A stretch of DNA of 64,000 nucleotides from Treponema primitia ZAS-2 (GTDB lineage Bacteria > Spirochaetota > Spirochaetia > Treponematales > Breznakiellaceae), in contig NC_015578.1 of assembly GCF_000214375.1 (NCBI RefSeq), forward strand, positions 3,534,001-3,598,000. Reading direction: 5' to 3'. A program made the position numbers and the translations under genes. The stretch's first letter is position 1, and each line of letters opens with the position of its first letter. Positions 8,127-9,231 of this stretch are shown here, in pieces. The notes beneath the pieces were generated by a model. The model did not search any database, was not told the origin of the DNA, and was given only the letters and a program-made list of their open reading frames with translations.

Positions 8127-8432
8127 ATGAACAAGGTTCGGCACACACGGACTTATAGACTATGGTTTTCCAATTTGGGTGACTTAAAAGCTCGAAGTCG
8201 TATTGATATGCGGATTAAACAACTTGCTTTGGGTAATCCAGGAGATGTTAAACCAGTTGGCGAAGGGATTTCTGAAATACGTATCGACTATGGGCCTGGG
8301 TATCGGATTTATTACAAAGATATAGGGAATGAAATTGTGGTATTGCTCTGTGGAGGTAATAAATCCACCCAAACAGAGGATATTATAAATGCAAAGAAAA
8401 TTGTAAAGGAATTGGAAGATGGAAGTAACTGA
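8127..8432 (+). CDS. RelE/HigB-type toxin (phage-derived Gp49-like addiction module killer)
   Basis: A 101-residue basic protein. The central segment GISEIRIDYGPGYRIYYKDIG and the following VVLLCGGNKSTQTEDI are the hallmark of the addiction module killer family (TIGR02683-like), RelE-fold ribosome-dependent or free mRNases. The order toxin then antitoxin is normal for this family. It overlaps the antitoxin gene by 14 bases. The promoter places the mRNA 5' end at the start codon. The toxin is presumably held inactive by the downstream partner, which usually also represses the promoter. Confidence 0.85.
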   Translation: MNKVRHTRTYRLWFSNLGDLKARSRIDMRIKQLALGNPGDVKPVGEGISEIRIDYGPGYRIYYKDIGNEIVVLLCGGNKSTQTEDIINAKKIVKELEDGSN

Positions 8433-8706
8433 TTGGGACATGGCGGATCATATCAACTCCAAAGAGGAAGTAATCGCTTATCTTGAGGCAGCCCTTGAGG
8501 AAAACGATATGGAGCTTCTTTTATCGACCCTTGGCGATATTGCACGGTCTAAGGGTATGACGCAGATCGCCAATGATCTAAACCTTTCCAGAGAAAGCTT
8601 ATATCGTTCCCTATCCCCTGACGGGAATCCATCATTCAGTACGGTCATGAAAGTTTTGAACACTTTGGGTTTCCATCTTTCCTTGAAACAAAAAGCAACA
8701 GCCTAA
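8419..8706 (+). CDS. antitoxin of the addiction module (HTH, TIGR02684-like)
   Basis: A 95-residue protein of the antidote family that pairs with Gp49-like killers. The N-terminal part MEVTDWDMADHINSKEEVIA is typical. Residues of about 43-80 form a Cro/C1-type helix-turn-helix (KGMTQIANDLNLSRESLYRSLS). It should bind and neutralise the toxin and repress the operon. ATG 8419 lies inside the toxin gene and has GGAATTGGAAG upstream, so translation is coupled. Confidence 0.87.
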   Translation: MEVTDWDMADHINSKEEVIAYLEAALEENDMELLLSTLGDIARSKGMTQIANDLNLSRESLYRSLSPDGNPSFSTVMKVLNTLGFHLSLKQKATA

Positions 8707-8815
8707 CAAAAACCAGCTTTCATGCACAATTATGCCGGTCCGTATACACGTTTCTTTCCGGTACATTCAATAGCCGTTAGAATATTGAGTAAGGTGGTAT
8801 TATAAAGAAAAGTTC

Positions 8816-8985
8816 TGGAGGTGAGGGGAATTGCCTTCGGCCGGTGATCCGTAGCATCCCCCAACGGCCCTACGCATTCGCTTGGGCCTTATGAGGGGCC
8901 GGTCAGGGGTTCAATTCCCCTACGGAGTGAGGTTTTTAAGAACTTTTTCAGGTAATAATGATTGTTTTAAGTTAAAAAAAAGTTC
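8816..8985. repeat. tRNA-Ala tail module 1 (170 bp)
   Basis: Begins with an 18-base direct copy of the 3' end of the downstream tRNA-Ala gene (8816-8833, tRNA positions 9144-9161). A structured middle follows, with stem GGCCC/GGGCC around TACGCATTCGCTT. Next comes a 21-base inverted copy of the tRNA T-arm at 8901-8921, then an AT-rich tail shared almost exactly with module 2. No open reading frame of note is present. Confidence 0.8.
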
Positions 8986-9143
8986 TGGAGGTGAGGGGCT
9001 TTCGGTCCGGGGGACCCTCCGTCGGCCTTACGCATTCGCTTAGGCCTTTGGGAGGGCTGGTCAGGGGTTCAATTCCCCTACGGGTTGAGGTTTTTAAGAA
9101 CTTTTTCAGGTAATAATGATTGTTTTAAGTTAAAAAAAAGTTC
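8986..9143. repeat. tRNA-Ala tail module 2 (158 bp)
   Basis: Same architecture as module 1: a 13-base direct copy of the tRNA 3' end at 8986, a middle with stem GGCCT/AGGCC around the same 13-base loop TACGCATTCGCTT, an inverted T-arm copy at 9059-9079, and a long shared tail ending in AAAAAAAAGTTC. That tail runs straight into the 3' end of the real tRNA gene at 9144. Confidence 0.8.
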
Positions 9144-9217
9144 TGGAGGTGAGGGGAATTGAACCCCTGACCTCGTGAATGCCATTCAGGCGCTCTAGCC
9201 AACTGAGCTACACCCCC
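9144..9217 (-). tRNA. tRNA-Ala (GGC anticodon)
   Basis: A 74-nt cloverleaf read by hand. Acceptor GGGGGTG pairs with CACCTCC and includes the G3-U70 wobble, the main alanine identity element. D-stem GCTC/GAGC, anticodon loop ATGGCAT (anticodon GGC), T-arm AGGGG-TTCAATT-CCCCT, discriminator A73. CCA is not encoded. The anticodon stem has one C-C mismatch at 28-42, which is odd. The upstream promoter is on the same strand. Its 3' end is duplicated twice downstream. Confidence 0.92.
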
Positions 9218-9231
9218 AGAAGAGTTTTTAG

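Follow-up and report, generated by a model that had tools for sequence, protein, structure and literature searches.

What are the two modules that follow the tRNA-Ala gene of Treponema primitia in the window (the whole 64-kb stretch of DNA analysed here), each built partly from pieces of that gene? The initial annotation had offered three answers: a small mobile element using tRNA 3′ ends, an integrase-site array, or a tRNA-linked structured RNA. An ARAGORN call together with a repeat search confirmed the two modules, here called units U1 and U2, and placed the features of the locus as follows.

9143 to 9218, minus strand: host gene, tRNA-Ala(GGC), called by ARAGORN and matched by Rfam RF00005 at 62.7 bits.
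8986 to 9142, minus strand: proximal unit U2, from repeats D1/D2, scoring 92.7 bits with model R1, which was itself built from U1, U2 and two further units.
8816 to 8985, minus strand: distal unit U1, built as U2, from repeats D1/D2, scoring 89.4 bits with the same model that it helped to build.
9059 to 9079, plus strand: U2 inverted copy of the tRNA-Ala T-arm plus GGTC, 21 nt, 100% identical.
8901 to 8921, plus strand: U1 inverted copy of the tRNA-Ala T-arm plus GGTC, 21 nt, 100% identical.
9012 to 9058, no strand assigned: U2 hairpin core, from compensatory changes relative to U1 and the tmRNA-linked units.
8854 to 8900, no strand assigned: U1 hairpin core, from compensatory changes as for U2.
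8986 to 8998, minus strand: U2 direct copy of the tRNA 3′ half, 13 nt, CCCCTCACCTCCA.
8816 to 8833, minus strand: U1 direct copy of the tRNA 3′ half, 18 nt, CAATTCCCCTCACCTCCA, exactly C56 to N73.
8932 to 8985, no strand assigned: U1 AT-rich trailer, nearly identical to the U2 trailer at 9090 to 9142.

Read outward from tRNA-Ala, U2 consists of a trailer, the inverted T-arm copy, the hairpin core and the direct copy of the tRNA 3′ half, and the C56-N73 half of tRNA-Ala is the source of the copied ends in both units. The direct copies at 8816 and 8986 form repeat family D2 with spacings of 170 and 158 bp, in agreement with the module lengths first reported, while what looks like a third copy, at 9131-9161, is the end of the tRNA itself. 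The two 21-base inverted copies are, as described, exact, and are the only exact inverted T-arm copies in the 64 kb. The near identity noted for the AT-rich tail extends further, the units agreeing at 89% across 151 nt, tail included; the U1 trailer also holds a AAAAAGTTCT/AGAACTTTTT inverted repeat. Neither unit is overlapped by an ORF of 60 aa or longer, in keeping with the reported lack of a protein gene. On the plus strand the U2 core reads CCCTCC-GGCCT-TACGCATTCGCTT-AGGCC-GGAGGG. The GC-rich middle of the initial annotation is present, but it is less variable than was claimed: it is a hairpin with the loop TACGCNNNNGCTT, and its stem changes by compensatory pairs. The folding energy of the window units is by itself unexceptional (z from -1.7 to +0.4), so the case for structure is a comparative one. 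Weak Rfam tmRNA matches on the plus strand of the units lie below the cut-off and reflect the T-arm copy. Adjoining the array, at 8127-8706, is a probable toxin-antitoxin pair, comprising a Gp49-like protein (below cut-off) and the addiction module antidote PF21716.

The array is one of many in this genome, which is a single contig of 4,059,867 bp. With ARAGORN applied to all tRNA flanks, units were found behind roughly 18 of the 50 or so tRNA genes and behind tmRNA; they number one to several in tandem, with varying copy number, and each is marked by a direct copy of its gene's own 3′ half. The comparison of tRNA 3′ flanks and the covariance-model search that had been proposed as checks thus both returned similar units, at other tRNAs and in relatives, and units stand at many tRNA genes in many genomes. 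Their cores fall into at least four types in this genome.

Core type A: Arg, Gln, Glu, Gly-CCC, Met, Pro-TGG, Ser and Trp genes.
Core type B: Ala and tmRNA.
Core type C: Pro-CGG.
Core type D: Gly-GCC.

Several type-C units with full inverted T-arm copies lie behind tRNA-Pro(CGG) at L075:4140-4700. A loose pattern scan attempted on the same genome gave only the known units and chance-level matches.

Type B, to which the window units belong, was extended by similarity search to two more units in the same genome, behind the tmRNA gene; among relatives, a DNA similarity search gave only short tRNA-end matches. The inverted T-arm copy beside tmRNA is that of tmRNA and not that of tRNA-Ala, and the copies are therefore derived from the host gene. 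One unit of the tmRNA array has Ala-type ends (GGAGGTGAGGGGAATCGAAC) and, from its sequence, looks as if it were derived from a tRNA-Ala-like gene. R1, a covariance model of these four cores (two Ala units and two tmRNA units), found matches behind the tmRNA of three relatives: G210 has seven, and G209 and G004 have one each. The T-arm copies of these units match the tmRNA of the same genome fully or nearly. Across 13 type-B units 96.5% of cells are paired, a percentage that no shuffle reaches, and 9 of 16 pairs have changed on both sides; the inverted copy spans the whole T-arm. The type is rare, with strong matches in 4 of 200 genomes, so that the evidence for mobility comes mostly from type A and the mobile reading of the window units is partly by analogy of build. 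In G210 the seven type-B units stand in tandem (L069:5270-6300), with TATAAT-like boxes on the antisense strand at some unit joints.

Type A is a branched hairpin whose fold is conserved. In seven aligned cores from this genome 98.2% of cells are paired, compared with less than 52% in slid controls, and 20 of 32 pairs have changed on both sides, which none of 500 shuffles equals. Across 108 units 93.9% are paired, with 756 two-sided cells (the A6 alignment was fitted to the structure, which inflates the percentage paired and does not disfavour G-T). The sense strand carries symmetrical GA/GA and GGA/GGA internal loops. The distribution is wide. Model R2 matches at 20 places in the T. primitia genome and in 242 of 394 sampled Treponematales genomes, from 66 of 92 genera, the models being built from few sequences, with rough E-values, and most of the relatives being MAGs. 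Type-A units also occur in Deltaproteobacteria and Omnitrophota (by a pattern scan of GTDB contigs followed by R2), where several lie 32-69 nt behind a tRNA with the core between inverted and direct copies; single MAG contigs may be misbinned, and the Omnitrophota cases come from several independent genomes. A phage or plasmid origin found no support: one type-A query matched nothing in phage and plasmid records, and the sole pattern match in a viral contig was not unit-like.

The ends of the units are specific to their hosts. Of the 108 type-A units, 99 lie behind a tRNA on the same strand with ends matching that tRNA. The copies average 16.7 nt (direct) and 12.2 nt (inverted), compared with 5.2 and 5.5 nt for swapped tRNAs. 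In 64 of 90 units C56 is the first base of the direct copy, and the discriminator base N73 is the commonest last one. Together the copies form a closing stem with 1119 Watson-Crick pairs, 19 G-T pairs and 36 mismatches; in 81 units the pairing starts exactly at C56, opposite a core that begins with two unpaired bases. First units lie 17-95 nt behind the tRNA.

Such a fold could in principle be that of a tRNA-linked structured RNA, transcribed onward from the tRNA, cut back to N73 and serving tRNA maturation or a small-RNA function; a role of this kind has been suggested for the E. coli RtT, whose RttR is annotated as ncRNA. The same-strand placement of the first units at so short a distance agrees with this, as do the conserved fold, the very low folding energy and the direct copy mostly ending at the mature 3′ end, and the purine loops (GA/GA, GGA/GGA) are on the tRNA-sense strand, as an RNA reading predicts. 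In stems selected as RNA, however, G-U pairs are common. In the core stems G-T accounts for 40 of 3152 standard pairs (1.3%), no commoner than A-C (35), whereas in the tRNAs from these loci the figure is 205 of 2670 (7.7%); Fisher's test of this deficit gives p of about 1e-35, a value that is only indicative since pair cells are not independent. Pair changes are almost all two-sided, the 756 cells vastly outnumbering the one-sided ones. Of 38 loci whose spacer is at least 45 nt long, 15 have a terminator-like hairpin and T run separating the tRNA from the unit, and the presence of units varies among congeners, both of which count against the RNA reading. Strict Watson-Crick pairing in DNA, or arm-to-arm copying, would give such a pairing pattern; ordinary RNA selection would not. 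We therefore regard the structured RNA as unlikely: of that part of the initial annotation the conserved fold stands, but the lack of a G-U excess argues for its being kept as DNA rather than RNA. A CsrA-binding sRNA, which the loop GGA had brought to mind, was rejected, the GGA/GA tracts forming symmetrical internal loops and RNA-type wobble being lacking.

A second alternative, that the units are by-products of tyrosine recombinases, namely arrays of att sites, or what integrases cutting in the T-loop have left behind, appears improbable, although several observations lean its way. The T-loop junction and the direct 3′-half copies resemble attL and attR and, as in islands and prophages integrated at tRNA genes, the insert lies between direct repeats of the tRNA 3′ half, the copy standing at its far end and the tRNA being intact. 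T. primitia itself has a 44-kb island with a phage integrase and ParA-/ParB-like genes in tRNA-Leu (G000:C1 about 3415100-3459080; L214:2106-3314, L213:11345-11580), which pushed a type-A unit to its far end; a clear terminator precedes the displaced unit. Recombinase-like ORFs at L185:1702-2640, L164:646-1416 and L174:620-1036 start right after a unit's tRNA-Tyr-end copy and are accompanied by an arm-like repeat, TAATTCCTTAC..GTAAGGAATTA. G196 and G131 hold such an ORF and repeat behind a unit's tRNA copy, the G196 ORF having a weak XerC-like match only (E 0.006). These sequences suggest that unit copies, rather than the tRNA itself, may serve as landing sites for islands. In contrast to islands, the units have no integrase and no genes, measure about 95-260 bp, and possess an inverted target copy and a conserved fold; attL and attR would leave that inverted copy and the branched core unexplained, and the copy boundaries C56 and N73 are constant across unrelated hosts. 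The integrase-site array of the initial annotation thus keeps a small place, yet with no integrase linked to the units.

Several findings speak for movement. Different tRNAs in different genomes are followed by cores with up to 93% identity; the T. primitia tRNA-Arg core and the G082 tRNA-His core, for example, agree at 92%. Nearest-neighbour cores share an isoacceptor above chance (22 of 99, against a null of 4), so that the distribution is partly vertical or specific to tRNA type; same-genome neighbours are enriched too. Occupied, empty and scarred sites are seen side by side at the tRNA-Trp-secE-nusG site of one genus (the names secE and nusG come from reading the ORFs), where G174, G178, G187 and G171 have a unit, G177, G183 and G189 have remnants, and most genomes have none. 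In G174 the tRNA 3′ half and 61 bp of trailer are duplicated exactly, flanking the inverted copy and core. Searches for a near-identical strain pair with clean filled and empty sites found none, and no insertion was caught happening. Congeners of T. primitia have no units behind tRNA-Arg(TCG). The contrary reading, that there is no element and that tandem duplication and template-switch (quasi-palindrome) copying beside a tRNA gene made the units, is very improbable: slippage and fold-back do naturally yield direct and inverted copies of a palindromic T-arm, and array copy number does vary, but a single core follows tRNAs of at least 15 amino-acid specificities, across several phyla and 66 of the 92 sampled genera, which slippage cannot have brought about, and for type-A cores the reading is already contradicted.

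Two side observations belong to these sites. The T-stem of tRNA-Arg(TCG) differs strongly among congeners (L416, L417, L418 and L419 compared with L127), the 3′ halves reading CCCTCC, CGTGTC and CCTGCC, as though insertions had replaced them. At the tRNA-Trp locus of G178 (L288), the type-A unit has its inner hairpin swapped for a much longer hairpin pair.

We suggest that the units are non-coding mobile DNA elements inserting at the T-loop and that the window modules are a tandem pair of them, a reading to which we give somewhat better than even credence; of the three answers first offered, the small mobile element using tRNA 3′ ends is the best supported. The broader proposal, that there exists a multi-phylum class of non-coding mobile DNA in which a folded core travels and writes its ends, one direct and one inverted, by copying its target, is more tentative and falls just short of an even chance.

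Insertion by such an element would take place in the T-loop of tRNA or tmRNA genes, at the junction T55|C56, and the traveller would be the folded core only, the sites having the core alone in common and both junctions falling at C56. We infer that the core, folded, moves as single-stranded DNA or else persists as a DNA cruciform. Once attached at C56 to the target strand, the core would fold back and copy 10-19 nt of that strand, and this fold-back synthesis would create the inverted stretch, which begins at C56 on the near side; joining within the trailer would then leave a duplicated 3′ half (C56-N73) on the far side. The direct and inverted copies would close the core as a stem while the tRNA stays intact, and arrays might grow or shrink by recombination between the repeated ends.

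The enzyme would be supplied elsewhere, in trans, possibly as a host recombinase or a mobiliser; no mobilising gene linked to units was found. RVT_1 had no match in the T. primitia genome or in the complete type-A carriers G050, G236, G242, G311, G318, G260 and G224, and target-primed reverse transcription is rejected as a general mechanism for that reason; a group II intron or other retroelement would likewise find no such enzyme in these hosts. A Y1 transposase is present in T. primitia and had no match in the type-A carriers G050, G020, G011, G214 and G165, so mobilisation by Y1/RAYT is not required; the complete genome of G050 has units with neither a reverse transcriptase nor a Y1 transposase. 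REP/BIME sequences with their RAYT (IS200-like Y1) are likewise short non-coding DNA hairpins dispersed in trans. The present units differ from them in having ends copied from the target tRNA and in occurring in G050 without that transposase. Integron attC arrays, too, are arrays of folded single-strand sites resembling the units, but the units have no cassette genes, and no linked integron integrase was seen.

The closest known relative in build is RtT (RF00391, rttR) of E. coli tyrT/tyrV. There, too, units of about 178 bp that contain no gene follow a tRNA in tandem, and each ends in a copy of the tRNA-Tyr 3′ end, ATCCTTCCCCCACCACCA, and carries an inverted stretch, GGGGAAGGAT; the units described here are also in tandem and end in the host tRNA 3′ end. 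RtT differs in having another core and a copy that starts near position 58-59 and not at C56, and it is known at one tRNA locus only, whereas the present units stand at many. The RF00391 covariance model, with E-values up to 1-5, had no match in the window or at type-A loci. An Rfam search with type A, at E up to 1, returned only tRNAs and chance matches, and in that run the positive control, E. coli RtT, was found strongly (133-138 bits). The units thus match no known family, and the first statement that they belong to no named one is true of the libraries searched; RtT qualifies it by having the same build around another core. Literature searches, with subscription papers mostly outside their scope, found no description of such units. 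We rate the class as new in kind because RtT is confined, as far as is known, to a single locus and has no explanation of its own; the class may be the general form of which RtT is one case, and the element could also explain the long-known tyrT repeats of E. coli.

Should this reading be true, the tRNA genes of hundreds of bacterial species carry an overlooked type of mobile element, one that escapes annotation because it contains no gene, lacks an Rfam entry and has ends of ordinary tRNA sequence. We know of no precedent among bacterial elements for ends copied from the target; they would point to a new insertion chemistry, and ends made from the target would let one element use almost any tRNA gene undamaged. 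The units would also supply spare tRNA 3′ ends where islands can land, and the type-A core alone is a searchable model for a large new family. A different arrangement in the same genome (L118; G000:C1 about 1311400-1313700) comprises tRNA-Leu(GAG) in three near-identical copies, spaced by about 1.1 kb and separated by inserts that differ.
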